Positions 6,963 through 16,660 of a stretch of DNA of 64,000 nt are shown one piece after another. Each line of letters begins with the position of its first letter. Position 1 is the first letter of the stretch. The DNA is taken from positions 124,001 through 188,000 of the forward strand of contig NZ_CAMYLS010000033.1 in the NCBI RefSeq assembly GCF_947259345.1, written 5' to 3'. This stretch comes from an uncultured Maricaulis sp. Its GTDB lineage: Bacteria > Pseudomonadota > Alphaproteobacteria > Caulobacterales > Maricaulaceae. The translations under genes and the position numbers were made by a program. The notes below the pieces were generated by a model. It was given only the letters and a program-made list of their open reading frames with translations. It searched no databases and was not told the origin of the DNA.

Positions 6963-7322
6963 TCAGACTTCCCTGACAGGAACGATCGTCACGCTTTCCC
7001 CGCAACCACACGCGTCCGTTTGATTGGGGTTGTTGAACACGAATTTCGCATGAAGCGGCGTGATTTCATAGTCGATCTGGGTGCCGAGCAGGAAAAGCAG
7101 CGCCTTGGACTCGAGTACGATCTCGACGCCCTGGTCCTCAACGCGCTCGTCCAGCGGGCCGGGTGCATCGACATAGGCCATCTCGTATTCCATGCCCGCA
7201 CAGCCGCCATTCTTGACGCCGACGCGCAGGAAACCAGCGCCTCGCTGAGCCATCAGCCCCTTGACGCGCTCGGCCGCGGCCTCTGTCAGGCTCACCGCCT
7301 TGGGTCGTTCACGTACAGCCAT
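6963..7322 (-). CDS. sufA: A-type Fe-S carrier protein SufA/IscA
   Basis: This 119-residue A-type carrier receives clusters from the SufBCD scaffold and passes them to target enzymes. The three conserved cysteines are visible: Cys41 (KNGGCAGMEY) and the C-terminal pair Cys105/Cys107 (DACGCGES). The HesB/IscA fold spans nearly the whole length. ATG 7322 is preferred; an in-frame GTG lies directly before it. It is the penultimate gene of the operon, 9 nt after sufT. Confidence 0.95.
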   Translation of the reverse strand: MAVRERPKAVSLTEAAAERVKGLMAQRGAGFLRVGVKNGGCAGMEYEMAYVDAPGPLDERVEDQGVEIVLESKALLFLLGTQIDYEITPLHAKFVFNNPNQTDACGCGESVTIVPVREV

Positions 7323-7331
7323 CACGGCCTC

Positions 7332-7766
7332 CTAGAACATGTTCAGCGCAAGTCGCGCTTCATCAGACATGCGATCCGGCGTCCAGGGCGGCTCGAAGGT
7401 GAGGTCCACCAGTGCCCGGTCGACACCGTCGACCTTCTCGACCGCTTCCTGTACCCAGCCCGGCATTTCGCCGGCGACGGGGCAGCCAGGCGCTGTCAGC
7501 GACATCTGGACTTTCAGGGTGCGGTCGTCTTCCAGATCGACCTTGTAAATCAGCCCAAGCTCATAGATATCGACCGGGATTTCCGGGTCGTAGACGCTCT
7601 TGAGCGCCTCGACGACGGCATCGGTGATCCGCGCCAATTCGTCGGCCGGGATCGCGCCCGTGCCGTCAGCCGGCTTGCTTTCGGTGGCAACCGGGCTTTC
7701 CGTCGCAGGCACGGCGGGCGCAGAGAGGTCGATCACGTCTCGGTTGGTATTATCGGTCATGGTCAT
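7332..7766 (-). CDS. sufT: SUF system maturation factor SufT (MIP18/DUF59 family)
   Basis: This 144-residue protein combines a variable Ala/Pro/Thr-rich N-terminal extension (~40 residues) with the MIP18/PaaD-like domain: DPEIPVDIYELGLIY, then TAPGCPVAGEMP with the conserved cysteine, and FEPPWTPDRMS near the end. SufT proteins help mature Fe-S enzymes. Here it lies between sufS and sufA with 2-nt and 9-nt gaps. Two in-frame ATGs occur at the start (7766 and 7760). Confidence 0.93.
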   Translation of the reverse strand: MTMTDNTNRDVIDLSAPAVPATESPVATESKPADGTGAIPADELARITDAVVEALKSVYDPEIPVDIYELGLIYKVDLEDDRTLKVQMSLTAPGCPVAGEMPGWVQEAVEKVDGVDRALVDLTFEPPWTPDRMSDEARLALNMF

Positions 7767-7768
7767 CC

Positions 7769-9010
7769 CTAGATGAGGAAGTCGCGGGCCTTTTTCAATG
7801 CGTCGACAAACGCATCGGCCTCTTCAATCGTGTTGTAGATGGCGAAGCTCGCCCGTGCGGTCGAACTCACACCCATCTGGCGCATCAGCGGCTGGGCACA
7901 ATGGTGGCCGGCCCGAACCGCGACGCCATACTTGTCGAGAATCTGCGCGACATCATGCGGATGCGCACCATCCATGGTGAAGGAGATGATCGCGCCCTTG
8001 TCCTGGGCGGTCCCGACAATACGCAGACCGTCGATCTCGGCCAGGCCCGCTGTCGCGCGGTCCATCAAGGTGCGCTCATGCTCCAGCACGGCCATGCGGT
8101 CATGACGTTCCAGCCAGCGGATGGCCGCGCCCAGACCGATCGCGTCGGCAATGGCCGGCGTGCCGGCCTCGAATTTGTGCGGGACATCGGCGAAGGTCAC
8201 GCGGTCCTCGAACACATCGGCAATCATCTCGCCGCCGCCCATATAGGGCGGGAGCCGGTCCAGCCAATCGCCCTTGGCATAGAGCGCCCCGATACCGGAC
8301 GGGCCATAGAGTTTGTGGCCGGTGAAAACGAAGAAGTCGCAATCGAGGGCCTGGACATCGACGGGCAGGTGCACGGCCGATTGTGAGCCATCGAGAAGGA
8401 CCGGAACGTCATGTGCCCTCGCAATCTCGATGATCCGGGTCGCATCATTCACCGTGCCCAGAACATTCGACATATGGGTGATGGCGATCAGTTTGGTCTT
8501 CTCGTTAACCATGCCTGCCAGCTGTGGATAATCCAGCTCGCCGGTTTCGGTGACAGCCGCCCATCGCAGAATAAGTCCTTTAGAATCCGCAAGAAGGCGC
8601 CAAGGCACGATATTCGAGTGATGCTCCATCTGCGAGATGATGATTTCATCGCCCTCGACCAGGAGCTGGCCGAAACTGTGGGCCACGAGGTTGATCGCCT
8701 CAGTCGAACCGCGAGTGAAGACGATCTCCTCCGTGCGTTCGGCATTGAGGAAACGTCGCACATCCTCGCGCGACTTCTCGAACTCTTCCGTGGTCTCGTT
8801 GGCAAGCGTGTGGAGCCCGCGATGCACATTGGCGTAGGAGGCGCGATAGACACCGGCCACGCTCTCGATCACGAATTCCGGTTTCTGGGCCGAGGCCGCA
8901 TTGTCGAGATAGCGTAGCGGATAGCCATTGATCTCACGCTGCAGAATCGGGAATTCGGCCCGGATCGCATCTATGTTTAGCGGTGCCTGAATGGTGGAGT
9001 GAGCGGTCAA
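7769..9010 (-). CDS. sufS: Cysteine desulfurase SufS (group II)
   Basis: This 413-residue PLP enzyme takes sulfur from cysteine to supply the SufBCD scaffold. The PLP lysine lies in the FTGHKLYGPSG motif. The catalytic cysteine is Cys371 in the RAGHHCAQPLM loop, the short-loop form of group II (SufS/CsdA) enzymes. No sufE or sufU is visible in the operon, so its sulfur-accepting partner must be encoded elsewhere or be absent. Its start overlaps the sufD stop by 4 nt, and its stop is 2 nt before sufT. Confidence 0.97.
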   Translation of the reverse strand: MTAHSTIQAPLNIDAIRAEFPILQREINGYPLRYLDNAASAQKPEFVIESVAGVYRASYANVHRGLHTLANETTEEFEKSREDVRRFLNAERTEEIVFTRGSTEAINLVAHSFGQLLVEGDEIIISQMEHHSNIVPWRLLADSKGLILRWAAVTETGELDYPQLAGMVNEKTKLIAITHMSNVLGTVNDATRIIEIARAHDVPVLLDGSQSAVHLPVDVQALDCDFFVFTGHKLYGPSGIGALYAKGDWLDRLPPYMGGGEMIADVFEDRVTFADVPHKFEAGTPAIADAIGLGAAIRWLERHDRMAVLEHERTLMDRATAGLAEIDGLRIVGTAQDKGAIISFTMDGAHPHDVAQILDKYGVAVRAGHHCAQPLMRQMGVSSTARASFAIYNTIEEADAFVDALKKARDFLI

Positions 9011-10035
9011 ATCAGCGCTCCCAGGCGGGCGCGAAGGCTCGCCTTAAGCGTCTCGCGAAGGGCTTCGTCCTGCACCCGGTCCAGCGGCTCGGCGAGATAG
9101 CTCTCAATCAGCAAAGCGCGCGCCTTGGCCTCCGGCAAGCCGCGCTGGCGCATATAGAAAAGCGCTGTCTCATCCAGCGTGCCCAGCGCATTGCCGTGCG
9201 CGCACTGGACGTCGTCCGCATAGATTTCCAGCTCAGGTTTGGCATCGATCTCGGCTTTCTCGCCCAGCATCAGCGCCCTATGCGTCATGCGCGCATCTGT
9301 TTGCTGCGCCAAGCGGTCGACGATGAATTTGCCCTGGAAGACGCCGTGACCACCCGACGCAACCGCGCCCTTCACGAGCTGTTTGGTGACGCCACCCGGA
9401 CCGGTGTGGTGGACGAGATTGGTCGAGTCTGCATGGCGTCCCGCCGCCAGGATATAGGCGCCGCCCATATCGACACTCGCGCCGTGCCCCGGGTGGACCA
9501 CATGGGTTTCGTTACGCGAGAGTCGCGCGCCGGTATCCACCATGGTCTGGTTGAGTGTTGCGCCGTCGGCGAGTTCAATCTCGGCCGATCCCACGAAGAC
9601 CGCGTCGGCGTCATGATTGGTGATTACAATGCGATCGAGCCGGGCACCCGCCTCGACGCGAATGGTGAGATGCCAATTGCCCAGTGAACCGGCCTCCCCC
9701 TTCAGCGTCTCTACCAGAGTCAGGGATGCACCCGCCGGCACCACCAGCGTCTCGTCTGCGGCACTCGCCCCCGCCGAGGCGGTGATGGTCAATTCCAGAC
9801 GGTCGCCATCCTGAGGCGACGTGAGTCTGTCCAGGCCGGTCACATCGATGCGTCCAGCACCGCTTACATCATTGGCGGCGCGGCGCAGATCGGACCATTT
9901 CCAGAGCTCGTGGCGCCGTGTCGGCAAGCCCTCGCGCTGCGTTACCTCACGCAATTGCGCGCGCCAGCCGGTCGCCCCGTCCAGCGCGTCGATCAGGGCC
10001 TGCTCGGCTTGTGTATGGGTCAGTGTCGCGGTCAT
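9007..10035 (-). CDS. sufD: Fe-S cluster scaffold subunit SufD
   Basis: This 342-residue paralogue of SufB pairs with SufB and SufC in the SufBC2D scaffold. The C-terminal part carries the family's right-handed beta-helix signature and the block with CAHGNALGTLDE, then the ARQRGL-like MRQRGLPEAKARALLIESYL segment that recurs in SufB. The N-terminal region has the short helical domain with TRRHELWKWSDL. It overlaps sufS by 4 nt and is separated from sufC by 3 nt. Confidence 0.95.
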   Translation of the reverse strand: MTATLTHTQAEQALIDALDGATGWRAQLREVTQREGLPTRRHELWKWSDLRRAANDVSGAGRIDVTGLDRLTSPQDGDRLELTITASAGASAADETLVVPAGASLTLVETLKGEAGSLGNWHLTIRVEAGARLDRIVITNHDADAVFVGSAEIELADGATLNQTMVDTGARLSRNETHVVHPGHGASVDMGGAYILAAGRHADSTNLVHHTGPGGVTKQLVKGAVASGGHGVFQGKFIVDRLAQQTDARMTHRALMLGEKAEIDAKPELEIYADDVQCAHGNALGTLDETALFYMRQRGLPEAKARALLIESYLAEPLDRVQDEALRETLKASLRARLGALI

Positions 10036-10038
10036 GCC

Positions 10039-10803
10039 TCAGGCCGCCTCCCCGAGATACTTGTCATAGCCTTCGGCCTCGAGTTCGCGGGCCAGTTCCG
10101 GGCCACCGGATTTGACGATGCGGCCATCCGCCATGACGTGGACGACGTCCGGCGTGATGTGGTCGAGCAAACGCTGGTAATGGGTGATGACCAGCATGCC
10201 GCGATCGGGCGCACGCAGGGCATTGACGCCGTCCGACACGATCTTCAGCGCGTCGATATCGAGGCCGCTATCGGTCTCGTCGAGGATCAGGAATTTCGGC
10301 TGGAGCACCAGCGCCTGGAGAATTTCCAGCCGCTTTTTCTCACCACCGGAAAAGCCGACATTCACCGCCCGCTTGAGCATATCCATGGAGACATTGAGCT
10401 GTTTCGCCTTTTCGCGGATCAGCTTCATGAATTCCGGCGCTGTAACCTCCTCTTCCCCGCGCGTCACGCGCTGGGCGTTGAGGGCTTCCTTTAGGAAGGT
10501 GATGGTCGGAACGCCGGGGATTTCAACGGGATACTGGAAGGAGAGATAGAGGCCCAGGGCCGCGCGCGCTTCCGGCGCCAGTTCGGCCAGGTCCTCGCCA
10601 GCGAAGGCCATTGAGCCGCCGGTGACCTCATACCCATCGCGGCCAGTCAGGACATAGGACAGGGTTGATTTGCCCGAACCGTTCGGCCCCATGACAGCAT
10701 GAACCTCGCCCGCCGGCACCTCGAGCGAAAGACCTTTCAGGATCGGCTTGTCCTCCCCGTCCTGGGTTTCGACTTGGCACTGGAGGTCTTGGATTTTCAG
10801 CAT
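10039..10803 (-). CDS. sufC: Fe-S assembly ATPase SufC
   Basis: This 254-residue ABC-type ATPase drives conformational change in the SufBCD scaffold. The Walker A motif GPNGSGKST is at residues 39-47. The signature motif is FSGGEKKRLE and Walker B is FLILDETDSGLD. I chose ATG 10803 because AGAGAG lies just before it and the family starts MLxI; a longer in-frame open reading frame to 11022 runs into the preceding gene and is not family-like. It lies 37 nt after the preceding small exported-protein gene and 3 nt before sufD. Confidence 0.97.
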   Translation of the reverse strand: MLKIQDLQCQVETQDGEDKPILKGLSLEVPAGEVHAVMGPNGSGKSTLSYVLTGRDGYEVTGGSMAFAGEDLAELAPEARAALGLYLSFQYPVEIPGVPTITFLKEALNAQRVTRGEEEVTAPEFMKLIREKAKQLNVSMDMLKRAVNVGFSGGEKKRLEILQALVLQPKFLILDETDSGLDIDALKIVSDGVNALRAPDRGMLVITHYQRLLDHITPDVVHVMADGRIVKSGGPELARELEAEGYDKYLGEAA

Positions 10804-10840
10804 GGTCTCTCTCATTATCCTGTCGAACCGGCCGGACCGG

Positions 10841-11521
10841 TCATTGTGCGTATTCGGCTTCGCAGGCGGTGATGATGGCAACGGCATCCAGCCCGCGGGC
10901 CGCGAGCCCTGAACGATCGGTGATGGTGCAGCGCCCCTCGGCGGCGTCGATCCGCATGTCGTAAATGTGCACGATGCCATCCATATCAAGCCGCTGCGCT
11001 GTTTCGTGATAGGTCGCCGCATTCTCGCGGGTCATGGTGATCACCAGACCGTCGCGGAGATCGAAGGCATCGACACCAAAGCCGCCGAGCTCGCCGGACG
11101 GGTAGTAGATACCGTCTTCATCGGCCTGCCAGACATAGTAATAGGTGTTCACATTGCCGGTGATGTAGGGGATGAAGAGCTCGGGCCTGCCATCCTCATT
11201 GATGTCGCGCAGGGTTGGCGCAGAAACGACGCTTTCAATGGTCAGCGGGTTGGCGGTGTCAAGCAGTTTGCCGCTCATCGGGTCGTGTTGCGTAAAGGTG
11301 AGGACAGATTCCCAATCACCTGTTTCATAGGCGAAATTCAACAGAACCTCGCCAGGCATCAACGCACAATCGACGGTCCCGGCATCGCCGATTTCCAGCA
11401 TGTCACACCGGGGCATGCCGTCCTCGGTATGGGTGAAATCCTGGGCCGATGCTGACGCGCTCAGCGCCACCGCCACGATGATCGCTCCCGGCATCATCCT
11501 GTGCTTCATCCTGGTCATCAT
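10841..11521 (-). CDS. Putative exported protein of unknown function within the SUF operon
   Basis: This 226-residue protein has a Sec signal peptide (MKHRMMPGAIIVAVALSAS with ASAQ-DF cleavage near residue 27). The mature part contains a block, DINEDGRPELFIPY, resembling a single FG-GAP/VCBS calcium-type beta repeat, and several Cys residues (MPRCDMLE, TVDCALM, GRCTITD, ITACEAE) that could form disulfides. It is translationally coupled (4-nt overlap) to the cupin gene upstream and precedes sufC. An exported protein has no obvious role in cytoplasmic Fe-S assembly. I do not recognise the family. Confidence 0.75.
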   Translation of the reverse strand: MMTRMKHRMMPGAIIVAVALSASASAQDFTHTEDGMPRCDMLEIGDAGTVDCALMPGEVLLNFAYETGDWESVLTFTQHDPMSGKLLDTANPLTIESVVSAPTLRDINEDGRPELFIPYITGNVNTYYYVWQADEDGIYYPSGELGGFGVDAFDLRDGLVITMTRENAATYHETAQRLDMDGIVHIYDMRIDAAEGRCTITDRSGLAARGLDAVAIITACEAEYAQ

Positions 11522-12012
11522 CCTTCCCCCTCCCAGTAGTCCACCGGTTCGGCGGCAAAGGCGCGATGCCGGAAAGCCGGCTCATCACCATCGCCCTCGG
11601 TCCAGCGCACCGCGCCGACCTTATTGCTGTCCGGATATTCCACCACATCGACCGGCTGCATCGTCGAGACGCAGATATATTTGAGATCGCCCGTGCCGGT
11701 ATTGATCAGCTGGTGGGCGACATCGCGGCCACCGGTCGGCGCCGCCAGGACATGCCCGGCGCGCACGGCGTGACGGTCCTCGCCGAAACGGTAGGTCCCC
11801 TCACCCTCAAGAATGATGACGGCTTCCTCGATGGCATGGTGATTGTGGTAGGGGAAGGCCGTCTTGCCCGGCGGCACAATGGTCAGGCAACAGCCCAGCT
11901 GCTGCAGGCCGATCAACGGCCCGAGCCGTGCCAGATCGGCCGAGAAGGTCTCGCCATGCGCCATGGTTTCCAGCGGCGCGTCGTCGATATGGGTGATGGG
12001 GGAGCGGGTCAC
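11518..12012 (-). CDS. Cupin-domain protein within the SUF operon
   Basis: This 164-residue protein carries a single conserved beta-barrel cupin. The first metal motif is visible as PYHNHHAIEEAVIILEGEG, equivalent to G(X)5HXH(X)3-4E(X)6G. A second motif around AAPTGGRDVAHQLINTG supplies a later His. It probably binds one divalent metal. It overlaps its neighbours by 4 nt on both sides, so its translation is tightly linked to the membrane-protein gene before it and the exported-protein gene after it. A metal-binding cupin in an Fe-S operon suggests a metal or redox role, but this is only inference. Confidence 0.8.
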   Translation of the reverse strand: MTRSPITHIDDAPLETMAHGETFSADLARLGPLIGLQQLGCCLTIVPPGKTAFPYHNHHAIEEAVIILEGEGTYRFGEDRHAVRAGHVLAAPTGGRDVAHQLINTGTGDLKYICVSTMQPVDVVEYPDSNKVGAVRWTEGDGDEPAFRHRAFAAEPVDYWEGEG

Positions 12013-12623
12013 GGCGTGTCACCCTCCCGAACCTGGACGGAATGGCTTGTCTGTCCATAAAAACGCATATTGCTAGCCGTCAAACTGAAACTCGGACCCT
12101 CCGGTGGGGCCTGACCGCAATCGTCGCGTCGCCGGTATTCGACCTCGACAACTTGACGAACCGGGCTGGTGACAGCGCCAGCATCCTCACGCAGCGTGAC
12201 CGCATTTTGCATCGACGTAAAACGCAGACCACAATGGGTCACGACAACCCGGTCATTGCTCGCCCAACTGATGGCAAGACGGTCATCCTGCTCCAACGGC
12301 GACAGGCGGTCATCCTCAGCCAATCCCAAATATGCCACGGCGTACTCGGCCTCACCCGATTTCAGTGTCACCGTCGACTGCGAGAATGAGCCTGTAATTT
12401 CGCCATTTGTGATGAGGTCATGGGTGGCGGATTGCACGGACAATGAAAGCTCGCCCGACGGCGATACCGCTTCACCCAGCACTTCCACTCGGCTGTCATA
12501 GGAGAAATCGGGCTGCCAGAAGCCCGATACGAGGAACCAGTCCCAGATCACCACGCACAGGACGACCAGCCCCCAAATCGGGAGCAGTCCTTGCCAGATG
12601 ACCCGCAGAACCAGTTTCATCAC
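12009..12623 (-). CDS. Membrane-anchored protein of unknown function within the SUF operon
   Basis: This 204-residue protein has one N-terminal membrane span (about residues 8-33, rich in Leu, Val and Trp). A soluble, beta-rich remainder probably faces the periplasm. Two cysteines are seen, in VTHCGLRF and RRDDCGQ, about 45 residues apart. It overlaps the sufB stop (ATGA) and the next cupin gene by 4 nt each, so it is firmly part of the operon. I do not recognise a known domain. Confidence 0.75.
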
Positions 12624-14095
12624 CCCACACTCCCCTCAAGCGAGACCTTGAGCAGGGCCTGCGCCTCGACCGCAAACTCCATCGGAAGCTGTTGCAGGAC
12701 GTCGCGGACGAAACCATTGACGAGCAGGGCCGTGGCGGCTTCCTCGTCCAGACCACGCTGGCGGGCATAGAAAAGCTGGTCTTCGGAGAGCTTGGTCGTG
12801 GTGGCCTCGTGCTCGAGCACCGCCTTGGGCGTCTTGCACTCGATATAGGGCACGGTATGGGCGCCGCACTGATCACCGATCAGGAGGCTGTCACACTGGG
12901 TGAAATTGCGCGCGCCCTCGGCCTTCGCATGCACCGAGACCAGGCCACGATAGGTCTGGTCCGATCGGCCGGCCGAGATGCCCTTGGAGATGATGCGGCT
13001 GGTCGTGCCCTTGCCAAGATGGATCATTTTGGTGCCGGTATCGGCTTGCTGGCGGCCATTGGTCACCGCGATCGAATAGAACTCGCCGCGCGAATTCTCG
13101 CCGCGCAGGATGCAGGACGGGTATTTCCAGGTGATGGCCGAGCCGGTCTCGACCTGGGTCCAGGAGATCTTGGAATTCCTGCCCCGGCAATCGCCGCGCT
13201 TGGTGACGAAATTATAGACCCCGCCCTTGCCGTTCTCGTCGCCCGGCCACCAGTTCTGGACGGTGGAATACTTGATCTCGGCATCATCCAGCGCGACCAG
13301 TTCGACCACGGCGGCATGGAGCTGGTTTTCGTCGCGCATCGGCGCCGTACACCCTTCCAGATAGGACACATAGGCGCCCTTGTCGGCGATGATCAGCGTG
13401 CGCTCGAACTGGCCGGTGCCTTGCGCATTCATGCGGAAATAGGTCGAGAGCTCCATCGGGCAGCGCACGCCCGGCGGCACATAGACGAAGGACCCGTCCG
13501 AGAAGACGGCGGTGTTCAGCGTGGCAAAGAAATTGTCCGAGGCCGGCACGACCGATCCGAGATATTTGCGCACCAGCTCGGGATGGTCCCGAAGGGCTTC
13601 GGAGATCGAACAGAAGATAACGCCGGCCTTGGCCAACTCGGCCTTGAAGGTCGTCGCGACGGAGACACTGTCGAAGACGGCGTCGACGGCCACCCGGTTT
13701 TCCGAGCCTTTGACGCCGAGAAGCACTTCCTGCTCCTTCAACGAAATGCCCAACTTGGCGAAATCGGCGAGGATTTCCTCGGGCACATCGTCAATGCTGT
13801 CATACTTCGCACCGGCCTTGGGCTCGGCGTAATAGTGGATGTCCTGATAATCGATCCTGGGATAATGGACCTTCGCCCACTCCGGTTCCTTCATCGCCAT
13901 GAAGCGTTCCAGGGCGTCCAGGCGCCATTTCAGCATCCAGTCCGGCTCACCCTTCTTGGCCGAGATGAGACGCACAGTCTCCTCGTTCAGCCCTTTGGGA
14001 GCGAGATCCTGCTCGATGTTCGTCGTGAAGCCGTACTTGTACTTGTCGGCTTCAAGATTACGAACGTCTTCAATGGTTTCCTTGACCGCAGCCAT
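12620..14095 (-). CDS. sufB: Fe-S cluster scaffold protein SufB
   Basis: This 491-residue core scaffold subunit assembles the nascent cluster. Family landmarks are present: the N-terminal KYKYGF region, [29 protein letters not shown] and the C-terminal block with [17 protein letters not shown]. The later [15 protein letters not shown] segment, containing conserved Cys and Glu, is followed by ARQRGLDEE. Full family length. It lies 17 nt after the cysteine desulfurase gene and overlaps the following membrane-protein gene by 4 nt. SufC and SufD are encoded 1.8 kb further along the same operon. Confidence 0.98.
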
Positions 14096-14112: not shown

Positions 14113-15264
14113 TCAGGCACTTGCTTTGAGTGTCGGGGAAATGCGCGCCAGAGCCGCCGACCAGGCGTCGACTAAGGCGTCTGCATCATCCGGTTTCGAA
14201 TTCCAACCCAGGCTTACACGCACGAAGCCCTGCGAGGCCGCTTCTGGCAGTCCGAGCGCGGTGCCGATCTTGGAGCCCTTGGATGTGCCTGAGGAACAGG
14301 CCGAGCCGGCGCTAATCGCCACGCCGGCGAGATCGAGCGCCATGACCTGGGTCGCACCGGGCCAACCGGGCTGGCTCAATCCCAGCGTATTGGGCAATCG
14401 CGGCGCGTCGGCACCAATCTCGATCAGATCCGGAGACGCCGCCTTCAAGGCCGCTGCCATGCGATCGCGGGCTTCGGCCAGTCGGGCAAACTCGGCCAGA
14501 CCGGCAACCGCCTCATCCAACGCCGTCGCGAGGCCGACAATGCCCGCCACATTGAGCGTGCCGGCCCGGCGTCCCTTTTCCTGACCACCACCATGATGAT
14601 GACGGGCCATCGGGGCGTCGCAGGATGCCAGCAAGGCGCCGACGCCTTGCGGGCCTCCGAATTTATGGGCCGAGATGGCCATGTAGTCACAACCAAGACC
14701 CGCGAAATCGACCGCGATCTTGCCGACGGCCTGGATGGCATCGACCACACTCAGGCCACCAGCTTCGCGGATCAGCGCCGTCGCCTCGGCGACCGGCTGG
14801 ATCGTGCCGATTTCATTGCTGGCCAGCATCATGGCAAGCAGCGGCTTGCCGTCGGCCAGTGTCCAGCGCGACAGGCGCGCTTCCAGCCAGGCGGTCTCGA
14901 CGACGCCCTGACCATTCACCGGCCAGACTTCGACCGGCAGGCCGGTCATGGCGGCCGTGGCGGCGACGGCTTCATGCTCGATCGCGGTGACAATGATCGT
15001 CCCGATCCCGCCTGCGCGGAGGGCCGCATGAATGGCCAGGTTCAGGGCCTCGGTACCGCCGGAGGTAAAGACGATATCCTCGGGTCTGGCACACAGCGCC
15101 TTGCCGATCAGGCGCCGGGCCGTTTCGACACGCGCCAGTGCCGCCTGCCCATCCGCGTGCACGGAGGACGGATTGCCGACACGGGTCATCATCTCGGTCA
15201 TCGCTGACACGACGCTCGGACGCACCGTGGTGGTGGCGTTATGGTCCAGATAGATGCGGGTCAT
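14113..15264 (-). CDS. Cysteine desulfurase, NifS/IscS type (group I)
   Basis: This 383-residue PLP enzyme has the N-terminal signature IYLDHNATTTV, the PLP-Lys motif SAHKFGGPQGVGAL and the extended active-site loop with ACSSGTSKGSK, which marks group I (IscS/NifS). The operon therefore encodes two different desulfurases. ATG 15264 lies 2 nt after the iscR stop; a longer frame extends upstream into iscR on the same strand but has no family similarity. Its loop suggests direct sulfur delivery without SufE, possibly to SufB or to other acceptors such as tRNA thiolation. Confidence 0.94.
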   Translation of the reverse strand: MTRIYLDHNATTTVRPSVVSAMTEMMTRVGNPSSVHADGQAALARVETARRLIGKALCARPEDIVFTSGGTEALNLAIHAALRAGGIGTIIVTAIEHEAVAATAAMTGLPVEVWPVNGQGVVETAWLEARLSRWTLADGKPLLAMMLASNEIGTIQPVAEATALIREAGGLSVVDAIQAVGKIAVDFAGLGCDYMAISAHKFGGPQGVGALLASCDAPMARHHHGGGQEKGRRAGTLNVAGIVGLATALDEAVAGLAEFARLAEARDRMAAALKAASPDLIEIGADAPRLPNTLGLSQPGWPGATQVMALDLAGVAISAGSACSSGTSKGSKIGTALGLPEAASQGFVRVSLGWNSKPDDADALVDAWSAALARISPTLKASA

Positions 15265-15266
15265 GA

Positions 15267-15767
15267 TTACTCGGCGGCGTGAATGTCGCCGGCACCAAGC
15301 CGTTCCCGCGGTGCTCCAGCCGGGCGCTCGATGCGCCCCACCGCACCGGAGGCGGCACCAAAGAGCCGACGCTCCAGGACATCTTCCAGCGTGATCGAGG
15401 ACAGGAAGAGATAAATGTGCCGACCCAACTCGTCCCACAGGTCATGGGTGATGCAGCGACGACCATCACTGAGACAGCCCTTGGCTTCAGAACAGCGCGT
15501 CGCGCGCAGCGGCTCGTCAACGGCCAGGATGATGTCCGAGATACGGATCTGGGTCGGCAGGCGGCTCAGCTTGTAGCCGCCGCCCGGCCCGCGCACCGAC
15601 GACACGATGTCGGCACGGCGCAGCTTTGCGAAGAGCTGTTCCAGGTAGGAAAGCGAGATGGATTGGCGCGACGCGATGTCGCTCAACGTGACCGGACCGG
15701 TTTCGGCGGCATCTGCCAGGTCGGCCATGGCCATCACGGCATAACGCCCTTTTGTGCTCAGCTTCAT
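15267..15767 (-). CDS. iscR: Rrf2-family Fe-S responsive regulator IscR
   Basis: This 166-residue Rrf2-type repressor senses cluster status. The winged helix occupies residues 1-70 (KLSTKGRYAVMAM, SLSYLEQLFAKLR, VRGPGGGYKLSR). The cluster ligands are kept as Cys92, Cys98, Cys105 and His108, with one extra residue between the second and third Cys compared with E. coli IscR. A very strong ribosome-binding site (AAGGAGG, 7 nt before ATG) precedes it. It is first in the SUF operon. A near-consensus type-1 IscR box lies ~100 bp upstream, so autoregulation is likely. Confidence 0.96.
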   Translation of the reverse strand: MKLSTKGRYAVMAMADLADAAETGPVTLSDIASRQSISLSYLEQLFAKLRRADIVSSVRGPGGGYKLSRLPTQIRISDIILAVDEPLRATRCSEAKGCLSDGRRCITHDLWDELGRHIYLFLSSITLEDVLERRLFGAASGAVGRIERPAGAPRERLGAGDIHAAE

Positions 15768-15865
15768 GCGTTTACCTCCTTAAACACTCGCATCCGGCAG
15801 GCCGATCATGCTAAGACCCGCCTTTCCGGAGGGGGGCCGACCTCGATGCGAGGAATGCTGGTCCA

Positions 15866-15890
15866 ATATCCGAGTGAATTAGTCAAGAAT
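15866..15890. promoter_or_regulatory. Predicted type-1 IscR binding site
   Basis: Read on the plus strand, this 25-bp palindrome begins ATATCCGAGT, has centre GAAT and ends TAGTCAAGAAT. By my count it matches 22 of 25 positions of the E. coli type-1 IscR consensus (ATA, pyrimidine pair, GACT, A/T-rich centre, AGTC, purine pair, TAT). On the minus strand it contains TTGACT, a plausible -35. It lies about 100 bp upstream of iscR and about 87 bp upstream of the divergent hydrolase gene. Confidence 0.75.
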
Positions 15891-15976
15891 ATGGGCGCGC
15901 TCTTGTGCACTTGCAACGGGCGATTTGCCGCATATTCACGGGACACCGATGTTAAGACCCAAAAAGGCGAGACTGA

Positions 15977-16660
15977 ATGCCTGATGTGATCATTCCCGGC
16001 CCGGCCGGCCGGCTTGAAGGGCGCTACAGCCCGAGCGAAGACGCTACCGCACCGATTGCCCTTATCCTGCATGCCCATCCGCTGGGTGGCGGGAATATGG
16101 AAAATCCCTCGGTGGACATGATGTATGACGTGTTCCGCAAGCGGGGATTCGCAACGCTGAGATTCAATTTCCGCGGTGTTGGCCGGTCCCAGGGCAGCTA
16201 TGATCAGGGCCTGGGTGAGCTCTCCGACGCGGCGACCGTTCTGGACTGGGTCCAAGGCTATAACCAAGGCGCGCGCTTTTGTTGGGTCGCCGGACACTCC
16301 TTCGGCGCCTGGGTCGGTATGCAATTGCTGATGCGCCGTCCGGAGATTGCCGGCTTCATTTCTGTCGCTCCGCCGACCAATATGTATGACTTCACTTTCC
16401 TAGCCCCCTGCCCGGCCTCAGGCATCATCGTCCATGGCTCAGCGGACAAGATCGTACCGCCCGATGATGTCGAGCGGGTAATGTCGAAAGTCCGCGTTCA
16501 AAAAGGAATCGAGATCTCAACGGAGATCGTGCCCAACGCCAATCACCTCTTCTCCGACCATCTCGACATTCTGGAAAAGCATATCGAGACCTATCTCGAT
16601 GAGCGCCTTCCACTGGTCGAGAAAGAACGCTCCGAGCGGACGATTACCGGCAAGCGCTGA
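15977..16660 (+). CDS. Alpha/beta hydrolase
   Basis: This 227-residue protein has the lid-poor alpha/beta hydrolase architecture of small dienelactone-hydrolase-like enzymes. It has an oxyanion strand with HAHPLGGGN, a nucleophile elbow GHSFGA (Ser108), an Asp in HGSADKIVPP and a catalytic His in PNANHLF. No signal peptide is present, so it acts in the cytosol. It is divergent from iscR across a 209-bp region holding the IscR box. TTGCAA and TATTCA 16 bp apart (15911-15938) may form its promoter. The substrate is not predictable. Confidence 0.9.
   Translation: MPDVIIPGPAGRLEGRYSPSEDATAPIALILHAHPLGGGNMENPSVDMMYDVFRKRGFATLRFNFRGVGRSQGSYDQGLGELSDAATVLDWVQGYNQGARFCWVAGHSFGAWVGMQLLMRRPEIAGFISVAPPTNMYDFTFLAPCPASGIIVHGSADKIVPPDDVERVMSKVRVQKGIEISTEIVPNANHLFSDHLDILEKHIETYLDERLPLVEKERSERTITGKR

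Follow-up and report, generated by a model that had tools for sequence, protein, structure and literature searches.

Repression by IscR of its own gene is already known in other bacteria (E. coli, Pseudomonas and Caulobacter). The 25-bp motif of E. coli lies before the IscR gene, about −108 to −133 from the ATG, as at least two adjacent sites, and the isc and suf operons of that organism are separate. In Pseudomonas, type-1 repression by holo-IscR has been shown, and site B of P. aeruginosa iscR (ATAGTTGACCTAATTACTCGGATAA), which is one of two tandem sites, is bound by holo-IscR only and is located between the −35 and the −10 (PMC3899308, PMC6599224). Caulobacter crescentus has a fused isc-suf operon with iscR first. 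Repression of this orthologous operon by IscR in iron-replete cells was measured in 2024, and ChIP placed an IscR peak over the −35, where only low similarity to the type II motif of that study was reported (PMC11475020). [An IscR site ahead of the Caulobacter operon had already been predicted before then, as cited in PMC3751524.] In Rhodobacter the IscR box is at −36 to −19, over iscR promoter P2, and in R. sphaeroides a hydrolase promoter, P5, has been mapped downstream of P2 and upstream of iscR. P5 produces an RNA antisense to the leader of iscR and has a stimulating effect on P2 (PMC6956336).

The window considered here is the whole 64-kb stretch of Maricaulis DNA that was analysed, its close relatives with a species name all belonging to that alphaproteobacterial genus. 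Its minus strand carries a fused operon with iscR at its head, as in Caulobacter. The gene for IscR, a Rrf2-family regulator of 166 aa (15267–15767), is followed by one for an iscS/nifS-like cysteine desulfurase (14113–15264; TIGR03402, E=4.2e-89), and the remainder of the presumed operon extends over 6963–14095. It comprises sufB (12620–14095), three inserted genes, sufC (10039 to about 10800), sufD (9007–10035) and sufS (7769–9010), the suf genes all being recognised by Pfam, and then two SUF-type genes read from the sequence, one for a SUF-associated DUF59-like protein (7332–7766) and one for a SufA-like protein (6963–7325). Co-transcription of the isc-suf genes is presumed from the gene order and from Caulobacter. 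The three inserted genes occupy 10841–12623 between sufB and sufC; the one at 11518–12012 encodes a cupin protein (Pfam), and those at 12009–12623 and 10841–11521 have no Pfam match. Divergent from iscR, on the plus strand and across a gap of 209 bp (about 210 bp in the genus), is the gene for a 227-aa alpha/beta hydrolase (15977–16660; Pfam Hydrolase_4/Abhydrolase_6).

The gap contains, at 15866–15890, the sequence ATATCCGAGTGAATTAGTCAAGAAT (ATTCTTGACTAATTCACTCGGATAT on the iscR strand), for which a preliminary description had claimed a 22-position match to the type-1 consensus. On recomputation 22 of the 25 positions are indeed identical to the E. coli consensus ATASYYGACTRWWWYAGTCRRSTAT (used in the form printed in PMC3899308), and this is the best match in the window, the runner-up reaching 18 of 25. 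Judged from base composition, chance would produce 0.0009 matches of at least 22 positions over the two strands of 64 kb; for the gap of some 210 bp the figure is about 3e-6 to 8e-6. The same scan applied to the region upstream of E. coli iscR, as a positive control, returned two sites (24/25 and 22/25). With a position weight matrix built from 34 sites, all from outside Maricaulis, the operator scores 34.8 bits and the next-best place in the window 13.6. In sequence and orientation it is very similar to P. aeruginosa site B; unlike E. coli and P. aeruginosa, Maricaulis has one site. Another model, R1, was trained on iscR sites and so matches them by construction, which makes the absence of others the informative part: its single match in this Maricaulis genome is the iscR site. 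As to a wider type-1 regulon in Maricaulis, R1 gave only the iscR site convincingly, the few weak extras coming from six other genomes.

The neighbouring regulator keeps all four cluster ligands noted at the outset (C92, C98, C105 and H108). Its Pfam Rrf2 domain scores 1.7e-38, and TIGR02010 is its best NCBIfam model (E=7.6e-57; 190.9 bits, which is 17 below the equivalog cut-off of 207.55, a shortfall that would not be surprising in an alphaproteobacterial protein). Rrf2 regulators have a common fold and similar AT-rich dyads, and the site could in principle be used by a different one of them (RirA-, NsrR- or CymR-like). That is very improbable, however: a protein search of this genome gave a single Rrf2 match and no second homologue, and for that protein the IscR model is the best by far, the RirA model reaching 35.6 bits where its cut-off is 193. 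S40, Y41, E43, Q44 and R59 are kept as well and are invariant across a seven-sequence alignment; they are the DNA-contact residues according to PMC11475020.

Conservation of the operator is deep. In all 17 Maricaulis genomes from which iscR was recovered there is a match of 20 to 23 of 25 positions, located −121 to −125 relative to the iscR ATG, with the half-sites largely constant and the operator centre, spacer and flanks variable. A site of at least 18 bits stands between the hydrolase gene and the isc-suf operon in 68 of the 80 named loci from this class, and in every one of these 68 the best site is on the operon strand; at that threshold no operator was found in the other 12. Of these sites, 33 are roughly 0.5 to 1.1 kb away from iscR, ahead of an intervening gene, and fall outside the training set, for which the 350 bp next to iscR was used. 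At one such locus (L062) the intervening gene, at 1464–2423 between operator and iscR, reads as one for a cysE-like serine acetyltransferase, so the operator there stays at the head of a longer operon. Similar wide spacing is seen in about 32 further loci. In the widely spaced loci the IscR operon may thus begin with cysteine supply.

The TTGACT pointed out in the preliminary description is present on the iscR strand within the operator (15886–15881); its standing as a promoter element in Maricaulis is another matter. It might be thought that a sigma-70 −35 hexamer alone, with no IscR site, accounts for the conservation, and many Alphaproteobacteria do have a TATATC-like −10 after TTGAC[CT]. 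This is improbable, as the second half of the operator (CTCGG.TAT) and its AT-rich ends are also conserved, no acceptable −10 is found 16–18 bp after TTGACT in Maricaulis, and one Maricaulis genome (L015) has lost TTGAC (CCCCACC) while its operator still matches at 22 of 25. There is, besides, a better-conserved candidate promoter for iscR just upstream of TTGACT, composed of a TTG[CAT]AA-like and a CATAT[TA]-like hexamer with a 17-bp spacer. The proposed −35 is TTGCAA (15911–15916, minus strand), whose TTG keeps a fixed offset in 16 of the 17 Maricaulis genomes and is one base off in the other. The proposed −10 is CATATT (15888–15893, minus strand), overlapped by the operator; CAT is invariant in all 17, each having either CATAT[TA] or CATTTA. 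TTGACT is therefore probably not the −35 in Maricaulis. A generic scan of the region for strict-consensus promoters gave nothing above threshold and flagged neither proposed promoter.

With the start estimated to be near 15881, the position of the predicted promoter just upstream of TTGACT means that the operator would cover its −10 and start. Outside Maricaulis, a TATATC- or CTAnnTC-like −10 often stands at a suitable distance after TTGAC[CT], so that there the operator would cover the −35, TTGAC[CT] itself, and the spacer, in agreement with the Caulobacter ChIP peak and the −36 to −19 box of Rhodobacter. The sites of Caulobacteraceae, with TTGAC as −35 and a CTAnnTC-like −10, are of this kind, whereas the Maricaulis promoter has apparently shifted upstream; P. 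aeruginosa differs also, its site being in the spacer and not over the −10 and start as proposed here.

Taken together, the match, its conservation, and the ligands and DNA-contact residues of IscR make autorepression by holo-IscR the best reading of the site. That 15866–15890 is a genuine, deeply conserved predicted type-1 operator for this purpose is well supported, and the expectation of conserved classical autorepression with which the work began is further backed by the experiments in relatives. It is highly likely that the site serves IscR in repressing its own isc-suf operon, with the hydrolase gene probably having a promoter of its own. For Maricaulis itself we infer IscR binding, repression, the transcript starts and the iron response from the relatives. 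When [2Fe-2S] clusters are plentiful, holo-IscR would occupy the 25-bp site and exclude RNA polymerase by covering the iscR promoter at its −10 and start. In cells short of iron or clusters, IscR would lose its cluster and leave the type-1 site, and the isc-suf operon would then be made. The hydrolase gene would meanwhile be expressed from within the iscR leader, by RNA that reads through the operator.

The suggestion that the divergent hydrolase shares the control by IscR is doubtful. It would have holo-IscR at the one site repress, or activate, the hydrolase gene also, and the arrangement of the genes is in its favour, since in 108 of 110 loci the hydrolase gene and the operon are divergent, with about 210 bp between them in the genus. 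(Of 289 genomes from the class, 265 have the hydrolase.) However, the hydrolase strand has its best-conserved promoter-like element not at the operator but about 50–80 bp before it, in the iscR leader (15787–15817, plus strand; CTCGCAT ... TGCTAAGAC), and about half of the hydrolase genes sampled across the class have no operator within 700 bp upstream. In Rhodobacter, changes in the expression of the hydrolase gene RSP_0444 are small, both on iron limitation and in the regulator mutants studied (PMC6956336). The hydrolase gene therefore probably does not share the IscR operator and is not a classical co-regulated target; joint control through the one site is unlikely.

On the iscR strand the blocks of the leader element, CTTAGCAT and GATGCGAG, are essentially invariant in Maricaulis, and CTTAGCATGATC-N9-GATGCGAG (15787–15815, minus strand, iscR leader) has a unique full match in the genome. 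A related element, reading CT[CT]GC then TGnTAnnA on the hydrolase strand, occurs in 45 of 57 iscR leaders, 21 of the 45 being from Maricaulis, versus 1.3% of shuffles. The fifth position of its −10 is A in 85%, though A was not demanded by the search pattern. A search with a strict pattern for this promoter had few matches in a class-wide sample made up mostly of distant genomes, so the element may be less widely conserved outside the orders from which the leaders came. By place and orientation it would fit the layout of Rhodobacter P5, and it is predicted to be the promoter of the hydrolase gene. Its transcript is estimated to start near 15824 and then to run through the operator. A start in the leader, with RNA passing through the operator, argues against a simple shared operator; a roadblock is possible, as IscR would be bound at +43 relative to that start.

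Other identities for the leader block were considered. As an RNA element it finds no Rfam match in the window, and no helix kept across relatives was seen by eye. A short ORF (ATG ATC ... TAA) is broken in relatives, with ATA in L008 and an in-frame TGA in L017. For a second promoter on the iscR strand no conserved −35 was seen there. A different hydrolase promoter, TTGCAA-16-TATTCA on the plus strand at about 15911–15938, is poorly conserved in the genus.

The Maricaulis locus would resemble that of Rhodobacter in having an IscR box on the iscR promoter and a hydrolase promoter in the iscR leader. It differs in that the IscR of Rhodobacter has just one ligand cysteine and there is an Irr box in the Rhodobacter promoter; none was noticed in the Maricaulis iscR–hydrolase gap. 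[The iscR leaders of L174 and L177 have, right after the operator, TTAGAACGGTTCTAA-like sequences that resemble the Irr box of Rhodobacter P2.] A broader proposal is that many Alphaproteobacteria keep the hydrolase promoter within the iscR leader, so that the two transcripts overlap at the operator, coupling the genes by transcription, through P5-like modulation of iscR initiation together with an IscR roadblock. It is offered tentatively, and the odds are somewhat against it.

The IscR feedback loop with an E. coli-type operator would by these results extend to Maricaulis, and they provide a clean aligned operator set for the Alphaproteobacteria, where the type-1 motif has so far been less clear. 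What is modestly new is the apparent promoter shift in Maricaulis and the conserved overlapping promoter predicted for the hydrolase gene, both read from the sequence. The latter suggests that the Rhodobacter-type arrangement of iscR and hydrolase promoters is widespread and, if so, the role of this uncharacterised and very widely conserved hydrolase would become testable.
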